64,000 nucleotides of DNA from Blastococcus sp. CCUG 61487 (GTDB taxonomy: Bacteria > Actinomycetota > Actinomycetes > Mycobacteriales > Geodermatophilaceae): the NCBI RefSeq assembly GCF_005222955.1, contig NZ_LWUA01000157.1, forward strand, positions 1 to 64,000, written 5' to 3'. Numbering within the stretch: the first letter of the stretch is position 1; each line of letters begins with the position of its first letter. Shown piece by piece: positions 23,996 through 36,801 of this stretch. The position numbers were made by a program, and so were the translations under genes. The notes beneath the pieces were generated by a model that was not told where the DNA came from, did no database searches, and was given only the letters and a program-made list of their open reading frames with translations.

Positions 23996-24038
23996 GTGGA
24001 GACGAGGGGAATCGAACCCCTAACCCCCGCCTTGCAAA
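23996..24038. repeat. attL, displaced 3' half of tRNA-Ala
   Basis: 43 bases identical to 36728-36770, covering the tRNA-Ala 3' end, T arm, variable loop and anticodon region. Identity ends exactly after the anticodon-loop GCAAA; the rest of the tRNA is absent, so this copy is not a functional tRNA. Confidence 0.93.
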
Positions 24039-24146
24039 ATCGTCCGAGGGGCGGTTTGGCACAGTGGGCTGTGACTGAAAACCCGTCTTGAGCAGGCCTT
24101 TAACCGTTGGCAGTTGTCGGGCGCCGTCGGCCGATTTCGGCCGTTT

Positions 24147-24175
24147 TGCGGACCATCTGCGGACTGTGTGCGGAC
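24147..24175 (+). promoter_or_regulatory. Left arm-type integrase sites (three direct repeats)
   Basis: TGCGGAC occurs at 24147, 24158 and 24169, an exact 11-base period, 109 bases inside attL. The same word with the same spacing and orientation lies inside attR. This is the expected look of arm-type sites for a tyrosine integrase. The rest of the gene-free stretch 24039-24419 shows no convincing gene. Confidence 0.7.
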
Positions 24176-24419
24176 TGCGGGGACCGGCCGCCGCTGCGTC
24201 GGACGCCGCTCCGGGAGGCGGCACCCGCCCCATCCCCGCGGGATTGTCTCCGACCGCGCCGGCCGCCGGAAGGGCGCTTGCGCGTCCCTCCGGGATGGGC
24301 CTCCGGCCCACCCTTCCCCCGGCCGGTGCAGTCGGAGCAGGGCGGGTTATGGGAAGCGGGGTGGACCCTCGGCTGACCACCCACGTCCACGTCCTAGATC
24401 GGCGAGGTGAGGCCCGGCG

Positions 24420-24989
24420 TCACCGATCAGTGGTTGGCGGTGGCGGGTCCTCCGACCACGATCGGTAGAGCTGGTGGATGCCCTCCGACTCGGCCAGCAC
24501 GGTGCGCCACTGGGGGTTCTGCGGCTCTGCTCCCATCTCGATGCACCACTGCACCGCCGACTCGAGGGTCTGTCGCGGCGTGACGAAGTGCCCTTCGGAG
24601 CGGACGGTGTACAGGTGGAGGTGCGGGAAGGTGGCGTGGCTCTTGCCGGCCGGGTGCCAGTGCATCGCCCACAGCTTTGCGTTGTCCGGCGTCCGGAACT
24701 CATACAGGTAGGCCGACGTCGTCACCCGCCAGCGCCCCTGCTCGACGTCGTACTTCTCGGGATCGGTCGGGATGATCCGGTAGTGCATGGACGCTAGGAA
24801 CCGGCAGCCGGCCGAATCACCACGTAGGACAAGGCCGTCTCCGCCATTGAGTCTCCAGAGGTGCGTCTTGTCCGTCGCCGCACGCCCGCCAGGCGAGACG
24901 ACGATCTTGCCGGTGCCGAGGCAGGCCATCGCTCGTTCGAGAGGGGCCAGAAACGCCTCGACCGCTTGATACGGCGAAGCTCCCGGCAC
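24420..24989 (-). CDS. Hypothetical protein, possible toxin-like partner
   Basis: A 189-residue protein that I do not recognise with confidence. It shows a mixed alpha/beta pattern with a histidine-rich centre: WAMHWHPAGKSHATFPHLHLY (about residues 108-127), preceded by YLYEFRTPDN. That layout recalls TumE-like (DUF6516) toxins, but this is a loose resemblance. It starts at GTG six bases after the stop of the small 24996-25208 gene, without its own ribosome-binding site, so it is translated by coupling to that gene. The pairing of a small acidic protein with a downstream larger one is the layout of toxin-antitoxin modules. Confidence 0.6.
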   Translation of the reverse strand: MPGASPYQAVEAFLAPLERAMACLGTGKIVVSPGGRAATDKTHLWRLNGGDGLVLRGDSAGCRFLASMHYRIIPTDPEKYDVEQGRWRVTTSAYLYEFRTPDNAKLWAMHWHPAGKSHATFPHLHLYTVRSEGHFVTPRQTLESAVQWCIEMGAEPQNPQWRTVLAESEGIHQLYRSWSEDPPPPTTDR

Positions 24990-24995
24990 GAGTCG

Positions 24996-25208
24996 TCAGC
25001 GTACGAGGGGCAGAGCCATGAGCACGTCGAGCAGCCCTGGGTGGTCATCGGGATCGACGTCGTCGAACTTGCCCTCATCGAGGGCGGCGAGGAACTCCTC
25101 GCCGCTCACGTCCATCGCGGCGTGGGCGATTCGGTCGAAGGCCGCGCGGGCCTCCTCGGGGGTGAGCTCACTGACCTCGACAGACGCGCTGCTCTCTGCG
25201 ATCGACAT
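24996..25208 (-). CDS. Small acidic protein, possible antitoxin-like
   Basis: A 70-residue acidic protein beginning MSIAESSASVEVSELTPEEA, then RAAFDRIAHAAMDVSGEEFL and GKFDDVDPDDHPGLLDVLMA, ending LPLVR. Proteins of this pattern occur widely in actinobacteria without an assigned function. ATG at 25208 has a very strong site, AAGGAGGGGTGACC; a GTG two codons upstream is the alternative. It is first in a two-gene unit with 24420-24989. No DNA-binding fold is evident. Confidence 0.65.
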   Translation of the reverse strand: MSIAESSASVEVSELTPEEARAAFDRIAHAAMDVSGEEFLAALDEGKFDDVDPDDHPGLLDVLMALPLVR

Positions 25209-25221
25209 GGTCACCCCTCCT

Positions 25222-25253
25222 TTATCCACACAGCTGTCCACAAGACGTCCACA
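25222..25253. promoter_or_regulatory. Three phased TCCACA boxes upstream of the small pair
   Basis: TTATCCACA (25222-25230), CTGTCCACA (25234-25242) and ACGTCCACA (25245-25253) are direct repeats at 12- and 11-base steps, just upstream of the 25208 start. The first is a perfect DnaA box and the second a one-mismatch box. Either a DnaA-responsive control region or an operator for the downstream pair. Confidence 0.5.
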
Positions 25254-25405
25254 CCCATCTGTCTACAGGGTGCCACCGACGGAAACCCCGCGGCGAGCCG
25301 GGGCGCATGCGCCGTCACACGATCGGGGCGGAGGGTCGTCAACTGACGTCAAGCGCGCCACCCCTGCCGCTCGGCGCCATGCCTCGTCTCCTTGTCACTC
25401 TTCAG

Positions 25406-26446
25406 CTACGCGGAAGCCTCCTCCCGGCGTAGCCGCGCTTCGCGGTGGAAGTTCACTGGGCTGTTGTCGAGCACGCGGTTGACGATCGTAGGGAAGAAGA
25501 CCTCTGGGGAGAGGTTCGGCGGTACGGCGTCGCGACGTAGTCCGACATGCGGGAGGTCCCGGAGCCGTTGATCCAGCTCGTCTTCGGGCAGCGGGAGCGG
25601 CAGCGGCTCCTCCTCGGCGGAGGGGTCGGCCTGTACGCCGGCTGAGACAAGAGGGTCTTCGTCGTCCTCGTCGCCGCCCGGCGGGGGCGGCAATTCGTCC
25701 GACCAGTCAGGGATGACGAGGCAGACTGCGTCGTAGGCGTCGTCCTCGCGGCCGAGCTTGCCGAGAAGGTCGATGATCCAGGCGGCAATGTCGGCGAACT
25801 GCGGCGTCAGCGCGGTCGAGCGCAGGCTGTAGAGAAAACCAAGTGCCGCTTGCGGGTGCCGACTGCGCAGGTTCTTGGCGTCGCCGTAGCTCTCTTCGAC
25901 ACGGTTGGCGGCGTTCTTGCCGAACGACGAGTCCATCCGCTTGGTCGAGATCATGATCTCGGGACCTGTGTTCCAGGCGGACATGACAACGTCGACCTGC
26001 TTGACGTAGTTCTTGCCGAGGATGTTCGCGTTCGCGCCGGTCTCGTTGCTGTACGTCTTACCGGACTGCAGCATGGCATCGAGCACGCGCAGCTGTTCAC
26101 GAGTTGCTTCCCGCCGTAGCGCCACCAGCGTCGACGGCAGGATGCGTGGTGGATTTGCCCGGGGCCACACCAGATCGGGCTCGAAGCCGGCTCGGCGCAG
26201 CTCGTAGGCAGTCCAGACGTCGAGGGCTAACGCCGGCACACCGGACTGCGAGGCCGCTTGCAGCAGTAGCGGCACGCCCAGCAGCTGTTGGAGGACGTCG
26301 TAGTCGGGGTTGTAGCGGAGGGGCCCGTCTTCGGACTCGCGGTTCCACGGGTTGCTGTAGTCCTGCAGCTCCCCGCCGGTCTCTCGCTCAACGATCCGGT
26401 CGAACAGGGTCCATGCCTCGGACTTGAGACTGCGTTCAACAGCCAT
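25406..26446 (-). CDS. Putative type II restriction endonuclease
   Basis: A 346-residue protein encoded directly after, and overlapping by four bases (ATGA), an adenine methyltransferase gene. The central part has a nuclease-like pattern: VKQVDVVMSA (Asp about 152), GPEIMISTKRM (Glu about 163, Lys about 169), and SSFGKNAANRVEESYGDA. The D...E...SxK layout resembles a PD-(D/E)xK core with a variant last motif. The C-terminal third is acidic and proline-rich, then ends in basic residues. The endonuclease role rests on genomic context and this motif; specificity is unknown. Confidence 0.65.
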   Translation of the reverse strand: MAVERSLKSEAWTLFDRIVERETGGELQDYSNPWNRESEDGPLRYNPDYDVLQQLLGVPLLLQAASQSGVPALALDVWTAYELRRAGFEPDLVWPRANPPRILPSTLVALRREATREQLRVLDAMLQSGKTYSNETGANANILGKNYVKQVDVVMSAWNTGPEIMISTKRMDSSFGKNAANRVEESYGDAKNLRSRHPQAALGFLYSLRSTALTPQFADIAAWIIDLLGKLGREDDAYDAVCLVIPDWSDELPPPPGGDEDDEDPLVSAGVQADPSAEEEPLPLPLPEDELDQRLRDLPHVGLRRDAVPPNLSPEVFFPTIVNRVLDNSPVNFHREARLRREEASA

Positions 26447-28212
26447 CAGGGACGCCGCAGCTTGTTGCTGTTGGCTCTCCGGCTGGCTGTGCCGCCGCCA
26501 CCGTGATGAACATGCGGCGAGCCACCTCTTGCGACGCGTCGGGCCGTCAGCTCCTCGTGTCCTTGGCGCAGCGCCTTCACCTCAGCGTCTGGTAGCCCGA
26601 GTTCACCAATGAGAAGCACCTCATCGACCGCGCGGGCCGCCGACACGACTTGACCGCTTGCCAGGAAGCGGACCAACTGCGGCCGAAGTTTCCGTAGGGC
26701 TGTCTCGGCGGCTTTGGTCAGGGCGGGCGACGGCACGGGCAAGAGGTCGGCTTCCTTGGGTTCCAGCTTGAGCATCCCGCCTCCGTAGGCGCGACCAACC
26801 ATCTCTGCGCCGAGCAGCGTCATGGAGTTCAAGGACGCCATCGGCAGGAGATCGCTACCGAGCGCCCGGTGCTCCGGCTTCAGATAGACGCCGTGCACCG
26901 AGTTGAGATGGTGCGCCCGGGCCTTGTTGGCGGACAGCCGCGGTGTATCGGCGTTCATGTAGGTCAGCAGGAGATCGGCCGGCTTCACCAGCGGCGTCCG
27001 CCACCACGGCTTTCGTACCCGGCACTTGTAGGCCTGATCGACCTCTTGCTCCTGGCCCTCGTAGATGTACGCCCACGCAGCCGCAGACGGCTCGCCAGCC
27101 GGTCGGAACAACCAGACCGCTGCGCCGGCGTCTCCCAACTCAGTGAGCGCCGCGGTGGTGAGGCTGAGGCCCCGCAGGTGCCGCGACCCAGGAGGCGACA
27201 ACCGCAGCAGGTCTGACCTGGACAGGCCTAGCTGAGCGGCGCGCGCTGGGCTCAAGGTGAAGTACTTGTTGTTGCCCGTGACCATGCCGAGCGTGGTGTC
27301 GCCCCACGTCTCCAGCAGCGTGAAGGACTCAGTCGCCAGAAGCTCGGAATAGGCACCGAGGGTCTCGCTGGTCAGCAGGCTGGCAGTCCACTTGCCGGCG
27401 GGCGGGATCGGCCGCCACAGCCGTGGCGTCGTCGTGTTCGCCAGGTCGTCGGCGTTCTTCGCCTGGTACAGCCGGAAGTGGTCGGTGGGGCCGTTGGCGT
27501 AACCATCGGCCAAAACCAGGACGACCTCTTCCAGTACCCCGGGAAAGACGCGCTCGTCGAAGGCGACGAGATCGACCCGCTCGAAATTCTGCAGCAGGAA
27601 GGTGCGCACCCCGGCCGCGTAGTTGACCGTCAAGAGCTCGGCCGGCAGCACCAAGCCGAGACGACCACCGGGCTTCAAGAACTGTGCCGCATGCACCGTG
27701 AAGGCGGCCCATGACGACGCCAGGCCAGTCAGGGAGACACCGCCGCGGAGCGCCGCAGCGCGTGACCGGGCCCTACTTTCGCCGGAAAAGTCCTGGTACC
27801 GGACGTAAGGCGGGTTTCCGATTACCGCGTCGTACTGCCGGCTCGGCTTGACCCCGAAGAAGTCGCCGACGGTGACGGTTGCCTCCACGCCAGCGGCTGC
27901 CAGCAGGTCCCTTGCTGCTTGAGCTGAGTCCTCGTGGAGTTCAACGCCGTCGAGGTGGGGGAGAAACGTCTGTCCGGTGTTGGTGGCCTCCAGGGCGGCC
28001 AGGCGATCGACCGCGGCTAGGAGGAACGCAGCCTCGCCGCACGAGGGCTCGAGGACCCGGTCTTCGACGGAACGAACCGCCCAGTCAGTGATGTAGCGCG
28101 CGAGCGGTTCCGGGGTGAAGAAGGCGCCCCGGGCCTTCCGGAGGGCCGCCGTATCAAGATCTGCAGAGGCCGACCGGAGTACCACGCGTGCAGTCTTACC
28201 TATGGGGGTCAC
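26446..28212 (-). CDS. N6-adenine DNA methyltransferase (type II R-M)
   Basis: A 588-residue methyltransferase. Before motif I is GAFFTPEPLARYITDW, SAM-binding motif I is EPSCGEAAFLLA (about residues 55-66), and the catalytic motif IV is IGNPPYVRYQ (NPPY at 133-136), giving a gamma-class adenine enzyme like M.TaqI or the Eco57I methylase. The long C-terminal half is a probable target-recognition domain. The start is GTG at 28212, with a weak ribosome-binding site, so a slightly downstream start is possible. It forms an operon with the overlapping endonuclease candidate, and its base composition is less GC-rich than the core genes around the element. Confidence 0.85.
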   Translation of the reverse strand: MTPIGKTARVVLRSASADLDTAALRKARGAFFTPEPLARYITDWAVRSVEDRVLEPSCGEAAFLLAAVDRLAALEATNTGQTFLPHLDGVELHEDSAQAARDLLAAAGVEATVTVGDFFGVKPSRQYDAVIGNPPYVRYQDFSGESRARSRAAALRGGVSLTGLASSWAAFTVHAAQFLKPGGRLGLVLPAELLTVNYAAGVRTFLLQNFERVDLVAFDERVFPGVLEEVVLVLADGYANGPTDHFRLYQAKNADDLANTTTPRLWRPIPPAGKWTASLLTSETLGAYSELLATESFTLLETWGDTTLGMVTGNNKYFTLSPARAAQLGLSRSDLLRLSPPGSRHLRGLSLTTAALTELGDAGAAVWLFRPAGEPSAAAWAYIYEGQEQEVDQAYKCRVRKPWWRTPLVKPADLLLTYMNADTPRLSANKARAHHLNSVHGVYLKPEHRALGSDLLPMASLNSMTLLGAEMVGRAYGGGMLKLEPKEADLLPVPSPALTKAAETALRKLRPQLVRFLASGQVVSAARAVDEVLLIGELGLPDAEVKALRQGHEELTARRVARGGSPHVHHGGGGTASRRANSNKLRRP

Positions 28213-28552
28213 ACAATCGGCGAGCGGGCAAGAATGTCCAGGTCACCGGGGTGGCGGGACAACCTCACCGACAACACGTGCGGCGAGAAGGTCTCACCTG
28301 AGCGGGACGGGTCATCGGTAGTCCCGGGCGTTCCGTAGGGAGGACCCTCCCCAGCTCTTGTCCCCGGCATGCCGTGACGGACTGCCTGGCGCCAAGGCGC
28401 GGCTTAGCCAACTGCGCTGCGACACGCGGCGGCCTGGACCCGCATCCGAGGGGCGAAAGATCCCAAGATGACCTGGGAGGGAGGCCACCGCAAGGGACCT
28501 GCTGCGCGCGCCCGGTGGGCGTGCTCGGATCGCACGGAAGCGCCACGGTGCC
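28213..28552. other. Gene-free stretch between divergent island genes
   Basis: About 340 bases between the methyltransferase (minus) and the 28553 gene (plus). It must hold both promoters. No recognisable gene, repeat or terminator was seen. Confidence 0.5.
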
Positions 28553-29416
28553 ATGACTGTCGGTACCCCGTGTCAGCCTGTTGAGATGATGCTGAAACTC
28601 TTGGGCCAGCTCCGCGAGGTGGATTCAACGGAGGGCGAGGGCAAGACGTCACGGCACTCGGGCCGGCTCCTGCGTCAGGTCGAAATCAGCTTCCGCGTCG
28701 GCGACGCAGTGACCGAGCAGGTCACAGACGAGCTGAACGCCGCTCGTGAAGAGAGCGCCGCGTTAGAGGGCGACGACGGCACCCGATGGGTAGTCGGCTT
28801 GCACAGTCACTCCAACGTCAACGGCGGGACCTGGCGGATCACGGCTGCGCTGCGCGAGGTCGAGGAGGTGCGCGCGGAGCGCCTGGAGTTCCTCGGACTC
28901 GTGCTGTCGCCGTCGCACTACGACGAGCGCGAGGCATCCGGCAACGACGTACTAATGATCGTCGCAGAGGTCGCGCCGAGCCTCGAGGACAGCGAGGCGC
29001 TCGAGCGCCACATCACTGAGCAGAGGCTGCGGAACGACGGCGAGACCGCCCACTACTTCGGTCTCCGGCGGGTCGGGGTACAGGACGAGCCACTCCAGGT
29101 GCGATTCGGCCGATGCCTGTGGCAGAAGAGCGAGGGCGGAGCGCGTCGGCACCTGCTCGTCTTCGTCGCCGCCGATGGTGACGACGACGTGCAGGCCCGC
29201 CGCAAATTCGTCGGCTTCGACGAGCCCCGCAGCAGCAACGCAGCGCGCTTAGCGCTGCAGGGCCGTGAGGTCACCGAGGCCATCATCGAGGAGATCGCGC
29301 TCGCAGAGCTTCTGACGCCAGAAGCACTGGACCGCATCCGGCGGCGAGGCGAGACGGCATGGGATAGGCGCTTCCGCGACCTCAACGAGACAAGCGATCT
29401 CTCCCTGTTCTACTAA
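28553..29416 (+). CDS. Hypothetical protein, island cargo
   Basis: A 287-residue soluble protein with no family I can name. Visible features: GLHSHSNVNGGTW near residues 84-96, a charged middle region with EVEEVRAERLEFLGLVLSPS, the stretch VRFGRCLWQKSEGGARRHLL near 183-202, and a C-terminal helical region ending DLNETSDLSLFY. No signal peptide or membrane segment. ATG 28553 is used; ATGs at 28586 and 28589 are alternatives. It converges on the HIT-membrane gene with 25 bases between the stops, so it is a separate transcript. Its position between a restriction-modification pair and a TIR pair makes a defence or anti-defence role plausible but unproven. Confidence 0.55.
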   Translation: MTVGTPCQPVEMMLKLLGQLREVDSTEGEGKTSRHSGRLLRQVEISFRVGDAVTEQVTDELNAAREESAALEGDDGTRWVVGLHSHSNVNGGTWRITAALREVEEVRAERLEFLGLVLSPSHYDEREASGNDVLMIVAEVAPSLEDSEALERHITEQRLRNDGETAHYFGLRRVGVQDEPLQVRFGRCLWQKSEGGARRHLLVFVAADGDDDVQARRKFVGFDEPRSSNAARLALQGREVTEAIIEEIALAELLTPEALDRIRRRGETAWDRRFRDLNETSDLSLFY

Positions 29417-29441
29417 TCGCGACGAACTTCTCTGCCGAGCG

Positions 29442-30383
29442 CTACGGCTGCTGGCTGGGCATGTTTCCGGGCGCTTCCGAACCCGCAGGCTTTTCCGCCG
29501 GGCCCGTCAATAGTGCGATGACCAAGAGCGCGCCTCCGACGACCGCGAGCGGACCATAGAACAGCCAGACAGACCAATTGCGGAAGTGATTCGGCCACCA
29601 CCAGCGAGGGGGGCGAGCCTGAGTCGCTAAGCCCTTCATCGACAACGGAACAACCGAGTTGTCGTCGGCAACCGAGTCGTAGACATCTCTGGCCCGACGC
29701 TCGGCGTTGAGATACCGGGCATCAAGGGCTCCGAATGCTATAAGTGTCAGAATGCCGAGCGCGATGAATGGCCAACTTTCGCGCACTAGGGCTACTCCGA
29801 ATGCTGCGCCGGCGAGCGTAACCGACCAACCCTTCGCCGCGGCCGACGACCCCGCCATCCGCCCAATGGCTCCCGAGATCAGGTCAAGATGCTTTCGTCG
29901 ATCTTCTCGATCCTGCTCGCTGGCCATGTCATATCCGGCAAGCTTGGACGTCGCCACAGCGGCTTCAAGGCTGGACCGCATCGCATCCAAGTCTGCTGTT
30001 GACCACGTGGGGTTCGGCGACGGCCAAAAGTCCTCCACGGCGTCGCTCGCCCATCGAGGCACGACGTGGACGTGCAGGTGGTTGACCGTCTGAGTGGCAG
30101 CCCGGCCGTTCGACTGGATCACGTTGAGACCCTCGGGCCGCATGGCGTCGCGCGCCGCGGCAGCAACGCGCAACACCTCCGAGGCGAGATTTCGGGCTGT
30201 TCCCTGCGATAGAGCCCATATGTCGACCGTGTGATCGTCTGGCACCACCAAGACGTGCCCCCGCGTTGCCGGTTCGTCCGGCAGGAACACAGTGACACCG
30301 AGTCGCCGGGAGACGATGCGAGCCGGCGCGTCCCCCGCGATGATGTCGCAGAAGGCGCAGTCCGGGTCGCGTATGGGATTCAT
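29442..30383 (-). CDS. HIT-domain protein fused to a three-helix membrane domain
   Basis: A 313-residue fusion. Residues 1-125 form a HIT-family nucleotide hydrolase/transferase domain with zinc cysteines C9 and C12 (CAFCDIIAGDAPA) and an intact catalytic triad in NHLHVHVVP (H102, H104, H106). Residues 160-235 form a helical unit (DRRKHLDLISGAIGRM, then GWSVTLAGAAFGVALV) with two membrane helices at about 185-203 and 204-222; a third is at about 270-293. As I recall, this membrane unit recurs beside ThsB-like TIR proteins. The ATG overlaps the TIR stop (ATGA), so the two are coupled. It may sense or hydrolyse a TIR-made nucleotide and act at the membrane. Confidence 0.75.
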   Translation of the reverse strand: MNPIRDPDCAFCDIIAGDAPARIVSRRLGVTVFLPDEPATRGHVLVVPDDHTVDIWALSQGTARNLASEVLRVAAAARDAMRPEGLNVIQSNGRAATQTVNHLHVHVVPRWASDAVEDFWPSPNPTWSTADLDAMRSSLEAAVATSKLAGYDMASEQDREDRRKHLDLISGAIGRMAGSSAAAKGWSVTLAGAAFGVALVRESWPFIALGILTLIAFGALDARYLNAERRARDVYDSVADDNSVVPLSMKGLATQARPPRWWWPNHFRNWSVWLFYGPLAVVGGALLVIALLTGPAEKPAGSEAPGNMPSQQP

Positions 30384-30871
30384 CAGGCGCGCTTGACGGC
30401 GCCGTTCACCCAAGACTCGAAACTGTCCCGGATGGTGGCGTACACAGCCTTACTGTCGGTGCCGCTGGGATTGTGGAGGGTGACGTGGCGGCTGAGCGCC
30501 ATGCCATCAGCGTCGAAAACCTTATCGAAAGGGTTCTCGCCGTAGGAACCCTTGTTGCCGTTCAGGTCAAGCATTCCGTGGACACGGATGCCAACGAGAC
30601 GCCTCCTGTCCTGCCACGCCTTCTCGATCTCATACCTGACCCACTTGCGGGAGGCCGTCTCGCCGCCGACCAGCACGACGACGGCGTCCTTGCCGGCCAT
30701 CTCATTCGCGATCCAGTTCTTGACCGCCTGATCGCCGCCCGCCTTGATCGTTTCCCAACGCTGGGCGCTGACCTCCTCGCGATCCTCCTCGATGGCGCCG
30801 ATGTTTCGGATGCGCTGACACCGGGTCACGTCACCGTCGTAGTGGAAGCTCAGAAAGACCTTCTTGGCCAT
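30383..30871 (-). CDS. TIR-domain protein of the ThsB (DUF1863) type
   Basis: A 162-residue single-domain protein. The opening KVFLSFHYDGD is the first TIR strand, DAVVVLVGGETASRKWVRYE covers strand D and the active-site helix, and E81 in RYEIEKAW is the likely catalytic glutamate of the NAD-consuming TIR fold. The family (MTH538/ThsB_TIR) includes Thoeris enzymes that make cyclic or conjugated ADP-ribose signals upon phage infection. The ATG at 30871 follows GGCAGGAGCGTGCTAC. No ThsA gene (SIR2-SLOG) is nearby; the partner is the overlapping HIT-membrane gene. Family assignment is fairly sure; enzymatic activity is inference. Confidence 0.8.
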   Translation of the reverse strand: MAKKVFLSFHYDGDVTRCQRIRNIGAIEEDREEVSAQRWETIKAGGDQAVKNWIANEMAGKDAVVVLVGGETASRKWVRYEIEKAWQDRRRLVGIRVHGMLDLNGNKGSYGENPFDKVFDADGMALSRHVTLHNPSGTDSKAVYATIRDSFESWVNGAVKRA

Positions 30872-31054
30872 GTAGCACGCTCCTGCCCGTTGACTCCCTG
30901 CCGCCTTCTCCCGGATGCTCCCATGGACCGCCGACAGTCTGGGCGGAGTGCCCCGACCGCTCATCGGCATCAAGGCGTCCGGTAGGCCGATCTTCCAGCG
31001 GATCAGTCCGCGGCCTGCGGCTAGTGCCGTGCGACCGCGTCGGAATCTGGGCGG

Positions 31055-31687
31055 TCAAATCAGAGGCTGCCCCTTGGAGTTCTTAGAGCGCCGCTCACCG
31101 GTCGCAGGGTGGTACCCCCACAGCCAGATCATCACCGGCTCCGGGAGCTTGAACAGGACCTTGTTGAGGATGTGCTCCGCCTTCGGCGGCAGCTGGCGTG
31201 CGAGCCACTGGACCGGGCGACTATGCACCGGGATCCATGACGAGTCGAAGAGTTCGTCAGTGGTCGCCCGCCACTGGTAGGTCCGGCCCCGCACGTCGGT
31301 GATCTGCAGCGTGACCGGCAGGTCCACGGTGCCACCGTTCGCCTCCATCAGGTCGAGCGAGACGGGGTCGACGTGCTCACGACCCGGACCCAGGTACGGC
31401 CAGTGGGGATGTCCAATCCACTCCGGCTCCAGCACGTGGACGTTCCTCACCGGCCAGTCGCTGCTGTTCTTGACGGTGAGGTAGCCGCCGGTTAGCGCCC
31501 TGGTGTTTCCCAAGCCACCACGTGACTCCCAGATCGGCGTGATGCTTGCGGTCACGAGCCGGGCCTGACGCTGCTGCTCTCGGCGCTCGATGATGCGCGC
31601 GACCCATAGGCCGCTGATCACACCGGCGAGCAGACCGCTGACGATCCCCACGACGAGGTTGGGCAGCTGGTCCTGCAAGAATTCCAC
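31055..31687 (-). CDS. Hypothetical single-span membrane protein
   Basis: A 210-residue protein with one N-terminal membrane helix (NLVVGIVSGLLAGVISGLW, about residues 10-28), a basic IIERREQQRQ stop-transfer segment, and a soluble beta-rich domain with YLTVKNSSDWPVRNV and LQITDVRGRTYQWRATTDEL. The latter resembles immunoglobulin-like domains seen in actinobacterial surface or signalling proteins. The start is uncertain: GTG 31687 gives a compact membrane protein, but no ribosome-binding site is evident and GTG 31756 is possible. It lies 183 bases upstream of the TIR gene on the same strand and could belong to the same unit. Function unknown. Confidence 0.5.
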   Translation of the reverse strand: MEFLQDQLPNLVVGIVSGLLAGVISGLWVARIIERREQQRQARLVTASITPIWESRGGLGNTRALTGGYLTVKNSSDWPVRNVHVLEPEWIGHPHWPYLGPGREHVDPVSLDLMEANGGTVDLPVTLQITDVRGRTYQWRATTDELFDSSWIPVHSRPVQWLARQLPPKAEHILNKVLFKLPEPVMIWLWGYHPATGERRSKNSKGQPLI

Positions 31688-32223
31688 GGGATTGAGAATG
31701 CCTGTAGGTGCCGGTGACTTCTGACCGACAAGCCGGTTTGCAGACGCGCTGGTCACTGAAGTGCAAGCCGAACCCCAGTCGGGAACGCCGCAGGACAGAG
31801 CGAGCGCCCCTCGGCCGCCGTCCCGTACGACCCGCCCGGCGAGCCTTCCCGCACGGGCAGGACAACCGGGACACCCTGTCGGCCGCCCACAGTCCCGTCC
31901 GGTGGGGGCGCTCAGCGCCCACGACAGCGCGTCACAGGAGGTTGATGACGCGAGCCTGCGCAGCGCGGAAGTTATCGGGGTCGACACCGCTCGCTGAGAC
32001 GAACGACGCACAGGGCTTCGCAACCGACAATTGCCGCAAATAATCAACGAATGTGACCACCGCGTAGACTTTTCGCCCGCCATTATGGTCTTCTGCGGGC
32101 TAGCCAGGTCCTCGCCAAGAAACGGCACGCATGCTACCAATAGAGGTAGGTCGGGCCCTGCTTCGCGGGGCCCATCGCCGTTTCTAGGGGTGACCTGTTG
32201 GTCATTGTTGGGTGGCGCTGGAA
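31688..32223. other. Gene-free stretch upstream of the relaxase
   Basis: About 535 bases with no convincing gene. Near the relaxase start there is a GGGCCC...GGGGCCC hairpin (about 32153-32173) and an imperfect inverted repeat TGACCTGTTGGTCA at 32191-32204. Origins of transfer of MobF elements usually lie upstream of the relaxase gene, so an oriT may be here. This is a position-based suggestion. Confidence 0.35.
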
Positions 32224-35025
32224 ATGCACGGTGGAATGAAGGTATACGCCGGATCGGCGGCGGCCGCCCGGGCGTACCTGGAGGCCGACCGCGGCCGGGC
32301 CGATGACTACTACCTGACCGAGGGGACCGGGCTGGCCCGCCGCTTCGTGGCCCGGGACGGACGGGTGGCCGAGCAGGCGCCGCTCACGGGGGACGCCTAC
32401 GAAGCCTGGGTGGCCGGCCGCGACCCGGACACCGGCGACCCGCGGGGGCGGCTGCGCACCGACGCCCACGCGGTGCGCTTCGTCGAGGTGGTGGTCAACG
32501 GCCCGAAGTCCTGGTCGCTGGCCGCCGCGATGCATGAGGACGTCGCGGTCGCCTACGACGCCGCGCAGGACCGCGCCGCCGCCCAGATCATCAGCTGGCT
32601 CGCCGCCCACGCGACCACCCGGGTCGGCCCGCGCGGCGGCCAGGTCCAGGTGCCGGTGGAGATCCTGGAGGCGGTGACGGTGCGGCACTACACCTCCCGC
32701 GCCGGAGACCCGCACCGGCATCTGCACCTGCAGATCGGTGCCCGGGTGTTCGCCGCCGAACGATGGCGCGGGCTGCACACCGTCGGCGTGCGCGACTTCC
32801 TCGCCGCCATCAACGGAATCGGGCATGCCGCGGTCGCCTGCGATCCGCAGTTCCGGGCAACACTCGCCGCGCACGGCTACACCCTGGATGGGACTGGAGA
32901 AATACTGGAGCTTGGCGCCTACGTCGGTCCGTTCAGCGCAAGGGCGGCGCAGATCGGTCGCAACCTAGACCGCTACGAACGCGACTGGATGGCGGCGCAC
33001 CCCGGAGAACAGCCCGGTCCGGCGCTGCGGCGGGCCTGGGACGCCCGCGCCTGGGCCGAAGGGCGCCCGGACAAGGTCATCCCCCGCTCCGGGGCCGACC
33101 TCGTGGCGCGGTGGCGAGCCGAGCTGGGGTCACTGGGCTATCGCGATCCGGCCCACCCCGTCTCGCTGGCGTCGACTCCGGTAGGCGCGCTCGACCGCGA
33201 GGTTGCCGTCGACACCGTGCTGACCCGGCTGGCCGCCGGCCGTTCGGCCTGGAACGCGGCCGACGTGCGCGGCGAGGTTGAGCGGCTGGTCGCCGCGGTG
33301 GGCATCATCGCCGACACGGCGGTGCGCCTGGAGTTGGCCGAGGACCTCGCCGCCCGTGCTCTGGACCGGTGCGTTCCCCTGGTGGATCGGGAGGGAGTGC
33401 CGGAACACGTCCGGTCCTGGACCTCGCGGCCGGTGCTCGACGTGGAGGCCGACCTGCGTACCCGGTTCGCCGCCCGCGCCGGTCGGCCACCGCTGGGTGC
33501 ACCGCGGCCGGCGCCGCTGCCGGCCGGCGTTGTCCGGGGCCTGGACGCCGGTCAGGCCGCCGTGGTCGCCGTCCTGACCGGCGACCGGCGGTTGATGGTC
33601 GTGGAGGGCGCGGCCGGGGCGGGCAAGACCACCACGCTGGCCGCTGCCCGTGAGCTGCTGCAGCGGCAGGGGCGGCGACTGGTGGTTGTCACCCCGACGC
33701 TGAAGGCCGCCAAAGTCGCGCGTACCGACGTCGGCGTGCCCGCCAAATCGGCCGCGTCTCTCGTCTTCGCGCACGGCTGGCGCTGGACGGAGCACGGCGA
33801 GTGGACCCGACTCGTCGTCGGCGAGGTCGACCCGGTCACCGGCCGCATCCACACCGGGCCGGCGGAGGGGAGCCGGCTGCGGCCCGACGATCTGCTGATT
33901 GTCGACGAGGCCGGCATGCTCGACCAGGACACCGCCCGCGCTCTGCTCACCGTGGCCGACGAGGCCGGGGCGCGGCTCGCGCTGCTGGGCGACCGCCACC
34001 AGCTCGCGGCGGTCGGCCGCGGTGGCGTCCTGGACCTGGCCGCCGCTCAGGTCGATCCGGCCGCCTGCCTGACATTGGAGTCGGTGCACCGCTTCACCCG
34101 CACCGACAGCACCGGCCGGTCGGTTCCGGACGGTGAGTACGCCGAGCTGACGTTGGCGATGCGCCGGGGTGACACCCCCGGTGTGGTGTTCGACGCCCTC
34201 TTCGCCCGCGGCCGGATCCGCCTGCACTCCGACCACGCAGCGTTGCAGGACGCCCTGGCCGCGGCCGCCGCCCACGACGCCCAGGCGGCCGACGTCGCAG
34301 TGGTGGCGGACACCCGCGAGCAGGTCGACGAGCTCAACGCCGCCATCCGCAATCGGCTGGTCGCCGACGGCCGCGTCGACGACGTCCGGGTTGTGACCAC
34401 GCGGGCGGGCCAGCGGATCGGCGCCGGCGACAGGATCGCCACCCGGCGCAACGACCGTGACCTGGAGGTCGCCAACCGGGACACGTGGACCGTCACCGCG
34501 GTGGGCCGGCGCGGTGGACTGCTGGTCACCGCCGGCACGGCCACCGGGGACGTCTCCCGGGGCGATGTCACCCCGGCCGGCACACGGGTCCGGGTGCTGC
34601 CCGCCGACTACGTCACCCAGCACGTGGAGCTGGCCTACGCCAGCACCGCGTACGGCGTGCAGGGTGACACCGTTCCCGCGGCGCACGTGGTGATCGGTGA
34701 CCAGACCGGCGCGGCCTCGGCCTACGTCGGCATGACCCGCGGACGGTTGTCCAACACCGCGCACCTCGTCGCGGCCGACGTGGCTGAGGCCCGGGCCCAG
34801 TGGATCGCCGTCTTCGGCCGCGACCGGGCCGACCTCGGCCCCGGGCACGCCGCCGGGCTGGCCGCTCGAGAGGCCGCCCGCGACCGCCAGGACCGGTCGC
34901 GCTACCGGACGGCAGCCGCTCGGCCGCGGCCGGTCGCGCCGGTACCGAGCGTCCCCCGGCCCGAGGCAGAGCGGCGGGCACCATCCCTCGCCCGTGGAGG
35001 CGCAGCGCCGGGCATTGGTCGATGA
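32224..35025 (+). CDS. MobF-family relaxase/helicase (TrwC/TraA-like)
   Basis: A 933-residue conjugative relaxase. The N-terminal TrwC domain (residues 1-300) begins MHGGMKVYAGSAAAARAYLE, with the metal-binding histidines in DPHRHLHLQI (about 162-170) and candidate nicking tyrosines near the start (DDYYL, about 27-31). The C-terminal RecD-like helicase shows Walker A GAAGAGKTTT (about 464-473), Walker B LIVDEAGML (about 557-565) and the late TPAGTRVRVLPADYVTQHVE and YGVQGDT segments. It nicks oriT and unwinds the transferred strand. ATG 32224 is preferred over GTG 32212, as family members begin MHGG. No coupling protein is present in the element. Confidence 0.92.
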   Translation: MHGGMKVYAGSAAAARAYLEADRGRADDYYLTEGTGLARRFVARDGRVAEQAPLTGDAYEAWVAGRDPDTGDPRGRLRTDAHAVRFVEVVVNGPKSWSLAAAMHEDVAVAYDAAQDRAAAQIISWLAAHATTRVGPRGGQVQVPVEILEAVTVRHYTSRAGDPHRHLHLQIGARVFAAERWRGLHTVGVRDFLAAINGIGHAAVACDPQFRATLAAHGYTLDGTGEILELGAYVGPFSARAAQIGRNLDRYERDWMAAHPGEQPGPALRRAWDARAWAEGRPDKVIPRSGADLVARWRAELGSLGYRDPAHPVSLASTPVGALDREVAVDTVLTRLAAGRSAWNAADVRGEVERLVAAVGIIADTAVRLELAEDLAARALDRCVPLVDREGVPEHVRSWTSRPVLDVEADLRTRFAARAGRPPLGAPRPAPLPAGVVRGLDAGQAAVVAVLTGDRRLMVVEGAAGAGKTTTLAAARELLQRQGRRLVVVTPTLKAAKVARTDVGVPAKSAASLVFAHGWRWTEHGEWTRLVVGEVDPVTGRIHTGPAEGSRLRPDDLLIVDEAGMLDQDTARALLTVADEAGARLALLGDRHQLAAVGRGGVLDLAAAQVDPAACLTLESVHRFTRTDSTGRSVPDGEYAELTLAMRRGDTPGVVFDALFARGRIRLHSDHAALQDALAAAAAHDAQAADVAVVADTREQVDELNAAIRNRLVADGRVDDVRVVTTRAGQRIGAGDRIATRRNDRDLEVANRDTWTVTAVGRRGGLLVTAGTATGDVSRGDVTPAGTRVRVLPADYVTQHVELAYASTAYGVQGDTVPAAHVVIGDQTGAASAYVGMTRGRLSNTAHLVAADVAEARAQWIAVFGRDRADLGPGHAAGLAAREAARDRQDRSRYRTAAARPRPVAPVPSVPRPEAERRAPSLARGGAAPGIGR

Positions 35026-35188
35026 GCAGGGCCGCTTCCACCGGGCCGGCCGCGGGCCCGGACACCAGCAACAGGAGGAGAACTGGAGAATTTCGGGAGC
35101 CATCGGTGGTCGGCTGTCACCAATCGCGCCCGAATGGCGCCTTCTCCCGTGACGGAGCACAGCCCACCCGAGCCGATCGGAGCCAGCC

Positions 35189-35413
35189 ATGTCCGACGAT
35201 CCCGCCCGCCGCGAGCCCGAACTGCTCACCATCACCGAGGCCGCCGAGCTGCTCCGCGCTCCGGTGGCCACGCTCCGGTACTGGCGCCACCTGGGCACCG
35301 GTCCGCGCAGCTTCCGCCTCGGCCGCCGCGTCCTCTACCGCTCCGATGACCTGCACAGCTGGATAGAGACCCGGCATGGCGAGGCCGTCCCCGGCCCGGG
35401 AAACCGGCCATGA
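35189..35413 (+). CDS. Excisionase-like helix-turn-helix protein
   Basis: A 74-residue MerR/AlpA-type winged helix protein: LLTITEAAELLRAPVATLRY, then WRHLGTGPRSFRLGRRVLY and RSDDLHSWIE. This is the usual form of actinobacterial integrative-element excisionases, which bend DNA at the att arms and steer integrase toward excision. ATG at 35189 follows CGGAGCCAGCC. It precedes the integrase by about 160 bases, with a possible small gene between. No other regulator of excision is seen. Confidence 0.85.
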   Translation: MSDDPARREPELLTITEAAELLRAPVATLRYWRHLGTGPRSFRLGRRVLYRSDDLHSWIETRHGEAVPGPGNRP

Positions 35414-35601
35414 GCTGCCCGACCGCCGGCGCGGACGGCAGTCCACAGAATGCGGTCAACCCACCCGCGAAGCAGGCGGCTGACGGCAAAGTGGCTCCCG
35501 TGATCAGCGCGCCGGTGATGAAGCGCCGCCTCCGCAGGCCGCGGCCGGGGATCGAGGAGATGGAGGTGGTCGGTGATGGCGTCGATCGCGAGGAGACCTG
35601 A
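35410..35601 (+). CDS. Possible small protein between xis and int
   Basis: A 63-residue frame whose ATG overlaps the excisionase TGA (ATGA) and whose end overlaps the integrase start by 26 bases. The arrangement suggests coupled translation, but the composition (Pro, Arg, Asp) is unremarkable and no family is recognised. It could be a spurious frame. Confidence 0.35.
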   Translation: MSCPTAGADGSPQNAVNPPAKQAADGKVAPVISAPVMKRRLRRPRPGIEEMEVVGDGVDREET

Positions 35602-36790
35602 CGGCACGTACCGGCCGCGGTACCGCGACGAACACGGCAAGGAGCACGCCCGCCACTTCAAGCGCAAGGTCGACGCTCAGCGATGGCTCGACGAGGTCAC
35701 CGCGGCCGTGCAGACGGGCACCTACGTCGACCCCAAGCGGGCCAGGACGACCGTGGGAGAGCTGGCGCCCGTCTGGCTCGCCGGGAAGATCAACCTCAAG
35801 CCCACCAGTCGGGCCCGCTACGCCGACGTCCTCAAGACCCACGTCCTGCCGCGCTGGGGGAACGTCGCGCTGATCCGGGTGACCCACGGCGACGTGCAGG
35901 CCTGGCTGTCCGAGCTCTCCGACCGGGGGCTGGCCGGGGCCTCGGTCCGCAAGGCGCAGGGCGTCCTGTCCGGCATCCTCGGCCTCGCGGTGCGCGACCG
36001 GCGCCTGGCCGTCAACCCCGCGCTCGGCGTCGCCCTGCCCCCGCTGCAGGAAAAGCGCCGCCGGTACCTGACCGCCGAGCAGCTCGAGGCACTCGCCGAC
36101 GCCGCCGGGCCCGGCCGGGTCGCCGTGCTGGTGCTCGGCTACTGCGGGCTGCGCTGGTCGGAGCTGGCGGCGCTGCGGGTGCGGCACTTCGACCTGCTGC
36201 GCCGGCGTGTACTCGTTGAGGAGGCGGTCACCGAGGTCGACGGCTCCCGCCTGGTGTGGGGAACCCCCAAGAGCCACGGCCGCCGCTCGGTGCCGCTACC
36301 GCGTTTCCTCGTCGACGAACTCGCCAGGACGGTGGTGACCCGCCCCGCCGGCGAGCTGGCCTTCCCCTCGCCGCAGGGGGCGGTGCTGCGCAACCGCAAC
36401 GCCCGGTCCGCCTGGTTCGACAATGCGGCTCGGGCCATCGGAGAGCCCGGGCTCACGCCGCACGAACTCCGGCACACCGCGGCCTCGCTGGCGATCAAGG
36501 CGGGCGCCAACGTCAAGGCGGTGCAGCGGATGCTCGGGCACGCCTCGGCGGCCATGACCCTGGACCGCTACGCCGACCTGTTCGACGACGACCTGGACGA
36601 CGTGGCCGACCGGCTGGACGCCCTGCGGGCCGCATCCCGCGGACGAGTTGCGGACTTTTTGCGGACTGAGACCCCGTCGGAGGGCTTCCCGGAACCCCCG
36701 ACGGAGGGGAATCCGCAGGTCACAGGAGTGGAGACGAGGGGAATCGAACCCCTAACCCCCGCCTTGCAAAGGCGGTGCTCTGCCAATTGA
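35576..36790 (+). CDS. int: Tyrosine recombinase (phage-type integrase)
   Basis: A 404-residue integrase. An N-terminal arm-binding domain (SIARRPDGTYRPRYRDEHGK, residues 4-23), a SAM-like core-binding domain (about 60-150) and the catalytic domain follow. Catalytic residues are visible: Arg in GYCGLRWSEL (about 192), His and Arg in HELRHTAASL (about 295-298), His in LGHASAAMTLDRY and its Tyr (about 331). ATG 35576 follows GGAGGTGGTCG; a GTG one codon earlier is possible. The reading frame runs through attR into the antisense strand of tRNA-Ala, so the C-terminal tail (GIEPLTPALQRRCSAN) is encoded by the att site itself. Confidence 0.95.
   Translation: MASIARRPDGTYRPRYRDEHGKEHARHFKRKVDAQRWLDEVTAAVQTGTYVDPKRARTTVGELAPVWLAGKINLKPTSRARYADVLKTHVLPRWGNVALIRVTHGDVQAWLSELSDRGLAGASVRKAQGVLSGILGLAVRDRRLAVNPALGVALPPLQEKRRRYLTAEQLEALADAAGPGRVAVLVLGYCGLRWSELAALRVRHFDLLRRRVLVEEAVTEVDGSRLVWGTPKSHGRRSVPLPRFLVDELARTVVTRPAGELAFPSPQGAVLRNRNARSAWFDNAARAIGEPGLTPHELRHTAASLAIKAGANVKAVQRMLGHASAAMTLDRYADLFDDDLDDVADRLDALRAASRGRVADFLRTETPSEGFPEPPTEGNPQVTGVETRGIEPLTPALQRRCSAN
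36638..36666 (+). promoter_or_regulatory. Right arm-type integrase sites
   Basis: CGCGGAC at 36638, TGCGGAC at 36649 and TGCGGAC at 36660, again with exact 11-base steps and the same orientation as the left set at 24147-24175. They lie inside the 3' end of int, 62 bases before attR. Confidence 0.65.
36728..36770. repeat. attR within the restored tRNA-Ala gene
   Basis: 43 bases identical to attL. The copy brought by the element rebuilds the 3' half of tRNA-Ala, so insertion leaves a whole tRNA. The crossover must fall within this identity block, probably near the anticodon stem-loop as for related integrases. Confidence 0.93.
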
Positions 36791-36801
36791 GCTACGTCCC
36801 C
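36729..36801 (-). tRNA. tRNA-Ala(UGC)
   Basis: A 73-base tRNA on the minus strand: acceptor GGGGACG with CGTCTCC plus discriminator A, D arm GTAGCTCAATTGGCAGAGC, anticodon arm CCGCC-TTTGCAA-GGCGG (anticodon TGC), T arm with GGTTCGATTCC. No encoded CCA. Its 3' half serves as the element's integration site. Together with tRNA-Ile it forms the gyrA-linked Ile-Ala pair typical of actinobacteria. Confidence 0.97.

Follow-up and report, generated by a model that had tools for sequence, protein, structure and literature searches.

The window, a 64,000-nucleotide stretch of the Blastococcus sp. CCUG 61487 genome (contig NZ_LWUA01000157.1), carries a two-gene locus that encodes a ThsB-like TIR protein and a protein in which a HIT domain is fused to a membrane domain. 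In many Actinomycetes these components are likewise neighbours, which points to a form of TIR signalling immunity that has not been described before and that would contain its own signal processor. We favour, at a little short of an even chance, a three-part module in which the TIR protein would make an ADP-ribose-type signal, the membrane protein would act as the effector and the HIT domain would destroy the signal.

The two-gene locus and its mobile element

Both genes lie on the minus strand within an integrated mobile element. The features of the locus and of the element are as follows (evidence in brackets).

23996-36770, no strand: integrated mobile element carrying the pair, 12.8 kb (perfect 43-bp direct repeat of the tRNA-Ala end)
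26446-28212, minus: Eco57I-type DNA methyltransferase (PF07669, 1.8e-14; PADLOC MTase_II, 4.5e-208)
29413-30992, minus: unit of transfer (sole stretch common to the window and a related contig piece, 96.2% identity)
29442-30383, minus: HIT-membrane fusion gene, 313 aa (ORF, Pfam, PADLOC, AlphaFold model)
29445-29504, minus: weakly conserved C-terminal tail, residues 294-313 (dN/dS)
29505-29918, minus: PDC-M50A-type membrane domain, residues 156-293, three long helices (PADLOC, model, hydropathy)
29919-30008, minus: linker, residues 126-155 (AlphaFold model, dN/dS)
30009-30383, minus: HIT domain, residues 1-125, with C9, C12, H51 and H102-H104-H106 (PF01230, invariant residues, 3o0m fold)
30383-30871, minus: ThsB-like TIR gene, 162 aa, conserved Glu81 (PF08937, PADLOC ThsB and PDC-M50B)
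30880-30884, minus: Shine-Dalgarno-like AGGAG, 8 nt 5' of the TIR ATG (sequence)
32212-35025, plus: MobF/TrwC relaxase (TrwC, 7.8e-52; MobF NF041492 above cut-off)
35189-35413, plus: excisionase-like HTH protein (HTH_17, 5.3e-12)
35573-36790, plus: tyrosine integrase of the element (PF00589, 1.6e-21)
36728-36801: tRNA-Ala at the element end

The stop codon of the TIR gene and the start codon of the fusion gene have a single base in common (TGATG), not the ATGA overlap described in the earlier, sequence-only reading of this DNA. A scan of the locus for promoters and terminators yielded nothing beyond chance expectation. The GC content of the module is 63.5%, compared with 68.9% for the element and 72.2% for the window. 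The module is flanked by open reading frames at 28553-29416 (plus) and 31055-31834 (minus) that have no match in Pfam, NCBIfam or PADLOC at E values up to 0.1, and a 346-aa ORF (25406-26446) that abuts the methylase gene belongs to no confidently assigned family.

A blastn comparison of the window with a 19.9-kb piece from another genus of Geodermatophilaceae (G029) found only positions 29413-30992 in common, so that the TIR and HIT-membrane genes travel as a unit. Nocardioides caldifontis has positions 29483-30968 in common with the window at 82.7% identity. Purifying selection acts on all three domains, with dN/dS estimates of 0.12-0.13 for the TIR, 0.11-0.18 for HIT and 0.12-0.13 for the membrane domain; the C-terminal tail of the fusion protein yields 0.37-0.65, as opposed to 0.11-0.23 for the rest of that protein.

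Domain composition of the two proteins

The TIR protein matches the Pfam family ThsB_TIR (PF08937, E = 5.5e-24, above the cut-off) and two PADLOC models, ThsB (PDLC00433, 1.4e-57) and PDC-M50B (PDLC04688, 9.7e-50). Glu81, which had been picked out as the likely catalytic residue, is invariant in two overlapping sets of 12 and 16 TIR proteins. The assignment to the ThsB-like TIRs stands. Among solved proteins, a profile of the 12 TIRs best matches 8wcf, a 160-aa protein named 'Molecular chaperone Tir' (3.5e-53), followed by 9b7d (ThsB1, 2.2e-36) and 6lhy (about 2e-36).

The N-terminal part of the fusion protein matches the HIT family (PF01230, residues 18-110, E = 2.4e-18, above the cut-off) and displays the features of the superfamily, the H-x-H-x-H triad and a zinc-type set of Cys and His residues. 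The closest solved fold is the zinc-bound HIT protein of M. smegmatis (3o0m), the closest solved protein by sequence is 3l7x of Streptococcus mutans, and the fold also matches the Ap4A phosphorylases 3ano and 6af2. HIT enzymes have a broad substrate range. Residues C9, C12, H51, H102, H104 and H106 are invariant in all 38 HIT proteins linked to the membrane gene, confirming that the domain is intact; the same residues are present in 149-151 of 151 other (housekeeping) HIT proteins, and therefore the catalytic residues are no pointer to a module-specific substrate. The membrane-linked HIT proteins do possess markers of their own: P121 is found in all 36 actinobacterial members compared with 38 of the 151 others, and P35 in all 36 compared with 74 of 151; two haloarchaeal members keep P121 and have T at position 35. 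We did not file the HIT domain as ThsC. The PADLOC ThsC model (PDLC00441) matches the fusion protein at 1.8e-21 and matches a HIT protein from a locus without TIR (L056) at 4.1e-22; since HIT proteins of TIR-less loci score about equally well, this model, in effect a general HIT model, cannot settle kinship.

The C-terminal part matches the PADLOC model PDC-M50A (PDLC04686, residues 161-282, E = 3.3e-19), which we read as a membrane protein, the PADLOC library giving no description. In the AlphaFold model of the fusion protein (mean pLDDT 84.4, pTM 0.58), the HIT fold is followed by three long helices (residues 156-201, 204-239 and 270-293); the membrane domain modelled alone reaches a pLDDT of 84.8. 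Hydropathy over 19 residues is clear for the second and third helices (1.79 and 2.32) and weaker for the first (1.38 at 182-200), so two or three helices are predicted to cross the membrane. Pfam includes SLATT models, and the membrane domain of the window matches no Pfam family at E values up to 10, which gives no sequence support to a SLATT assignment. At E values up to 0.1, the 313-aa protein has no macro domain among its Pfam matches. Known folds were rejected for the membrane domain: the best Foldseek E value is only 3.0, and the top hits of a second structural aligner, with Z scores of at most 8.9, consist of designed proteins and pairs of long helices, in a range that its notes call common.

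Linkage of the TIR, HIT and membrane genes

Linkage was surveyed with three separate queries, one for HIT only, one for TIR only and one for the membrane protein only. Members of such loci served to train the HIT model, which itself contains no TIR or membrane sequence. Applied to named genomes, it separated the best 80 of 561 relatives among the matches listed into 17 loci with E values of 4e-51 or better and 63 loci at 2e-41 or worse. Within these best 80 of 561, all 17 loci of the first type, from 17 genera, have the membrane gene adjacent or fused (six fused) and a TIR gene within 5 kb (15 ThsB-like, two other), whereas neither the membrane gene nor a ThsB-like TIR occurs in any of the other 63, 10 of which have flanks cut short, to under 7 kb in all. 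The membrane-gene result (17/17 versus 0/63, again for the best 80 of 561) was repeated with a cleaner model, and phmmer searches with three other TIR domains found no match in the 63 other loci.

The TIR-only query of 298 genomes of the order gave 10 matches, seven of them at E values below 1e-60 (window included). All seven strong matches are accompanied by HIT and the membrane gene, fused in two cases (the window and G029); the three weaker matches have no HIT. One of the latter (L259, 3e-24) is an apparently whole TIR with neither HIT nor membrane gene, another is a partial TIR near a contig end with a membrane gene, and the third is probably no TIR gene at all. With the PDC-M50A model, nine of 396 genomes of the phylum match: three with HIT in the 1.5-kb flanks (the window, G228 and G235), three with TIR and no HIT (one of these weak and on a short contig piece) and three with neither. 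Our own membrane profile matches six of 394 genomes of the class, five of them strongly (window and G228 included), and all five strong matches have HIT; in one strong locus with membrane gene and HIT (G776), no TIR was recognised within 19 kb. Direct fusion is seen in 15 of the 38 membrane-linked HIT rows, some of which are near-copies. The neighbour counts of the three surveys (for the HIT-only query, within the best 80 of 561) lead us to reject a chance fusion of HIT and membrane domains, and they contradict the outcome that the sequence-only reading had named as a refutation, a chance fusion with no conserved neighbour TIR.

The TIR partner seems to be swapped in some places next to the same HIT and membrane genes. 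In Promicromonospora (L047:3227-4876), one of the two loci with a non-ThsB TIR, an AAA-TIR_2 fusion protein adjoins HIT; in Glycomyces (L051:428-1168), a TIR-like ORF spotted by eye lies about 4 kb upstream and is matched by a Streptomyces TIR domain at 1.1e-16; and a further locus (L038:2401-3933) has a TIR_2 protein with a long C-terminal part.

Copies on plasmids and viral contigs

The fused arrangement next to a TIR gene is also found on plasmids of Rhodococcus ruber, where it adjoins DISARM, and of Gordonia terrae, Mycolicibacterium vanbaalenii and Mycobacteroides chelonae. A match was present in 150 plasmid records, and 11 of these, for the most part the highest-scoring ones, were retrieved; an annotated TIR protein adjoins HIT in 10, Halorussus being the exception. 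The gene order varies: TIR, HIT and membrane protein are three separate genes in a row in Dietzia kunjamensis; in Rhodococcus p52, Arthrobacter YA7-1 and Dietzia DQ12-45-1b, TIR and HIT are together and the membrane gene is on the opposite strand; and in Streptomyces NBC_00724, HIT and the membrane gene adjoin another type of TIR. On two haloarchaeal plasmids, of Haladaptatus and Natrinema, TIR and the membrane gene are accompanied by a more distantly related HIT. Defence genes near the module or on its carriers include DISARM, HsdR and an Eco57I-type methylase with GIY-YIG.

Outside Actinomycetes, TIR and the membrane gene mostly occur without HIT. The TIR profile picked out 35 TIR loci on viral contigs; the membrane gene is present in 20 of these (a weak match in one case) and HIT in a single one, so that 19 of the 20 loci with TIR and membrane gene are HIT-less; from the side of HIT, the whole three-part set is present in three of 79 viral-contig HIT loci (L138, L140 and L141, the last two near-copies). 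Eight plasmid TIR loci of other groups, picked by hand, comprise two with the membrane gene and no HIT (Desulforapulum and Ligilactobacillus), one with all three parts (Natrinema), two adjoining a SIR2 protein and three with no HIT, membrane gene or SIR2. The related TIRs that adjoin SIR2, in Cereibacter (47.5% identity) and Phocaeicola (36.4%), are arranged as in Thoeris. Because the pair is mostly HIT-less elsewhere, the wider unit seems to be TIR plus membrane protein, with HIT as a regular addition in the Actinomycetes loci found. The sequence-only reading had named, as part of the grounds for giving up the idea, homologues of the membrane protein that usually lack HIT; this describes 19 of the 20 viral-contig loci but not the strong Actinomycetes loci, which do have HIT.

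HIT genes also occur alone in viral collections. One on IMG/VR contig 3300044960_000579 (L142:3992-4417) scores 3e-54, falls within the TIR-linked group in the tree and has neither a recognised TIR nor a recognised membrane gene in the 4 kb around it; it is possibly a counter-signal enzyme. Another lone HIT (L139) is similar but weaker (1e-46). Furthermore, 146 phage records, many of them actinophages, match the HIT-membrane protein; the 30 rows listed match mainly in the HIT part and are mostly annotated as histidine triad proteins, for which an anti-TIR role is conceivable.

History of the fusion

Two HIT trees were built, the first with 90 of 191 rows (the 38 membrane-linked HIT proteins, the lone L139 and L142, 43 others and seven viral ones) and the second with 41 rows. 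The fused state needs five changes on the first tree and, for the 36 actinobacterial rows, four on the second (4-5 among bootstrap trees, with a single change in 0 of 200). Well-supported branches, however, force only three changes on the first tree and one on the second, and an AU test does not reject a single fused clade (p = 0.101); we therefore do not claim several origins of the fusion. The two haloarchaeal plasmid HIT proteins fall in another clade of the first tree, but a single clade is again compatible with the AU test (p = 0.158), and separate recruitment of HIT in haloarchaea is likewise not claimed.

Relationship to known defence systems

Of the features of type I Thoeris, the window possesses a ThsB TIR with the conserved Glu, and a SIR2-SLOG ThsA is absent from the locus. 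The earlier statement that no ThsA is nearby holds for a SIR2-type ThsA: no SIR2 match was found in the ten scanned ORFs of the element, and a scan of the whole genome found SIR2_2 only once, on another contig (C265, L262). The ORF that follows it there was read by eye as HerA-like, and the two likely make up a SIR2-HerA pair. A classical Thoeris system with its ThsA far from the locus was rejected, given that neither the element ORFs nor the genome scan contain a SIR2-type ThsA.

A close listed relative is the PADLOC candidate PDC-M50, composed of M50A and the M50B TIR: both proteins of the window match its models and the genes are adjacent, and the difference is the added HIT enzyme, which is either fused or encoded by a third gene. 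In PADLOC-DB 2023 the PDC-M50 models carry two part names, and the open-licence literature searched yielded no paper that uses the name PDC-M50. Thoeris with ThsC (type II of PADLOC 2021, consisting of ThsA, ThsB and the HIT protein ThsC) likewise combines a ThsB-like TIR with a HIT protein; here, by contrast, the SIR2-type ThsA is absent and HIT is tied to a membrane protein. For loci with ThsA, the ThsC HIT has been proposed to form or degrade the TIR signal, perhaps as an off-switch (PMC8565338). The type II Thoeris of later papers, with a TM-macro ThsA and His-ADPR, resembles the proposed module in that a TIR signal acts on a membrane effector whose soluble domain handles nucleotides (PMC11204291, PMC12948488), but the soluble part here is a HIT hydrolase rather than a macro domain and precedes the membrane part. 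In the pairs of TIR and 2TM SLATT proteins of Firmicute phages, a TIR gene also adjoins a small membrane effector (PMC9503650); the membrane domain of the window differs in its lack of any Pfam match at E values up to 10, and the available portion of that paper mentions no HIT domain. The ring nucleases of type III CRISPR systems, a comparison made in PMC8565338, similarly couple signal degradation to signal-driven effectors, and ring nuclease activity built into effectors is mentioned in PMC13148439; with a different fold and a different signal, this is an analogy only.

Two halves of the module are already known, one as the database candidate PDC-M50 and the other as ThsC, an addition to Thoeris. 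Neither the three-part set without ThsA nor a HIT-membrane fusion was found in the open-licence literature searched, and we regard the module as a so far undescribed form of TIR signalling immunity with a putative defence function. The sequence-only reading, which proposed a candidate undescribed system distinct from classical Thoeris, is upheld in part, for the co-inherited set without a SIR2-type ThsA; its novelty is narrowed by the PADLOC listing of the TIR-membrane pair and by the signal-processing role already suggested for HIT in ThsA loci (PMC8565338).

Proposed mechanism and alternatives

The architecture, the three-way linkage, the intact catalytic residues, the purifying selection and the transfer as a unit are supported directly. 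Described TIR signals include 3'cADPR, which acts on SIR2 effectors, His-ADPR, which acts on TM-macro effectors, and N7-cADPR, which acts on caspase-like effectors (PMC12847820, PMC12948488). Judging from its family and the conserved Glu, the ThsB-like TIR would sense phage infection and turn NAD+ into an ADP-ribose-type signal. The PDC-M50A domain, by analogy an effector, would assemble in response to the signal and make the membrane leaky or disrupt it, so that the infected cell would stop before phages are made. The HIT domain would be an active nucleotide hydrolase of the zinc type. By cutting the signal, probably at its phosphate bridge, it would set a threshold or end the response; the fusion would place this off-switch on the effector itself. 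Since the pair of TIR and membrane protein occurs without HIT elsewhere, HIT is most simply explained as a regulator that removes the signal. Speaking against the three-part module are the locus with membrane gene and HIT in which no TIR was recognised within 19 kb, the three weaker TIR matches without HIT, and a membrane domain that has neither a Pfam family nor a convincing solved fold. Moreover, the near-universal presence of HIT in the Actinomycetes loci found would also be explained by a sensor or a signal converter.

The first of these roles, a receptor in which HIT binds the TIR product, perhaps as a nucleotidyl-histidine intermediate, and gates the fused membrane domain, is in our estimate unlikely. 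It would account well for the direct fusions (the 15 of 38 membrane-linked rows, near-copies among them) and for HIT being found in all strong Actinomycetes loci of the three surveys (for the HIT-only query, within the best 80 of 561). However, the same membrane family adjoins TIR without HIT in 19 of 20 viral-contig loci, which shows that HIT is not an obligatory receptor for the family and favours a regulator; in addition, HIT is often a separate gene, sometimes on the opposite strand. Somewhat more doubtful still is a converter role, in which the TIR would make a precursor and HIT would transfer or cut a nucleotidyl group to yield the true activator. The Ap4A phosphorylases among the fold matches and the many loci with co-directional TIR and HIT genes that overlap or abut are consistent with a joint synthesis, but pairs of TIR and membrane protein that lack HIT are common elsewhere, and HIT runs opposite to TIR and the membrane gene in some loci (L131/L135 and L138).

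We consider it very improbable that HIT protects the host from side products of the TIR or the phage, such as adenylylated compounds or Ap4A, and leaves the signal untouched: the housekeeping-like catalytic residues and the broad substrate range of HIT enzymes fit such a role, but linkage in 17/17 versus 0/63 loci (best 80 of 561) and frequent fusion would not be expected of general housekeeping. Equally improbable is a stress or element-maintenance system, for example a membrane toxin with a HIT antidote, for which carriage on plasmids and an integrative element would speak and against which stand the listing of TIR with this membrane partner as a defence candidate in PADLOC and the restriction and DISARM genes among the neighbours.

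The favoured reading, with HIT as the enzyme that removes the signal, can be extended to a bolder one, which we put forward tentatively, as possible and short of probable: Actinomycetes would possess a separate TIR immune system that belongs to none of the described Thoeris types. Its TIR product would open a membrane-killing effector and be cut by the HIT attached to it, making a self-ending, thresholded death switch, and some phages would carry a lone HIT of this kind as a counter-measure.

Implications

If the module works as proposed, it would provide, as far as we know, the first example from TIR immunity in which the enzyme that processes the signal is coupled to the effector, a coupling supported by the occurrence of the genes together across at least 17 genera, in many of them as one protein. 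The suggestion made in 2021 that HIT proteins switch off TIR signals would become directly testable in a two-gene system, and the fused and separate versions of the module provide a ready comparison set for tests of a HIT off-switch.
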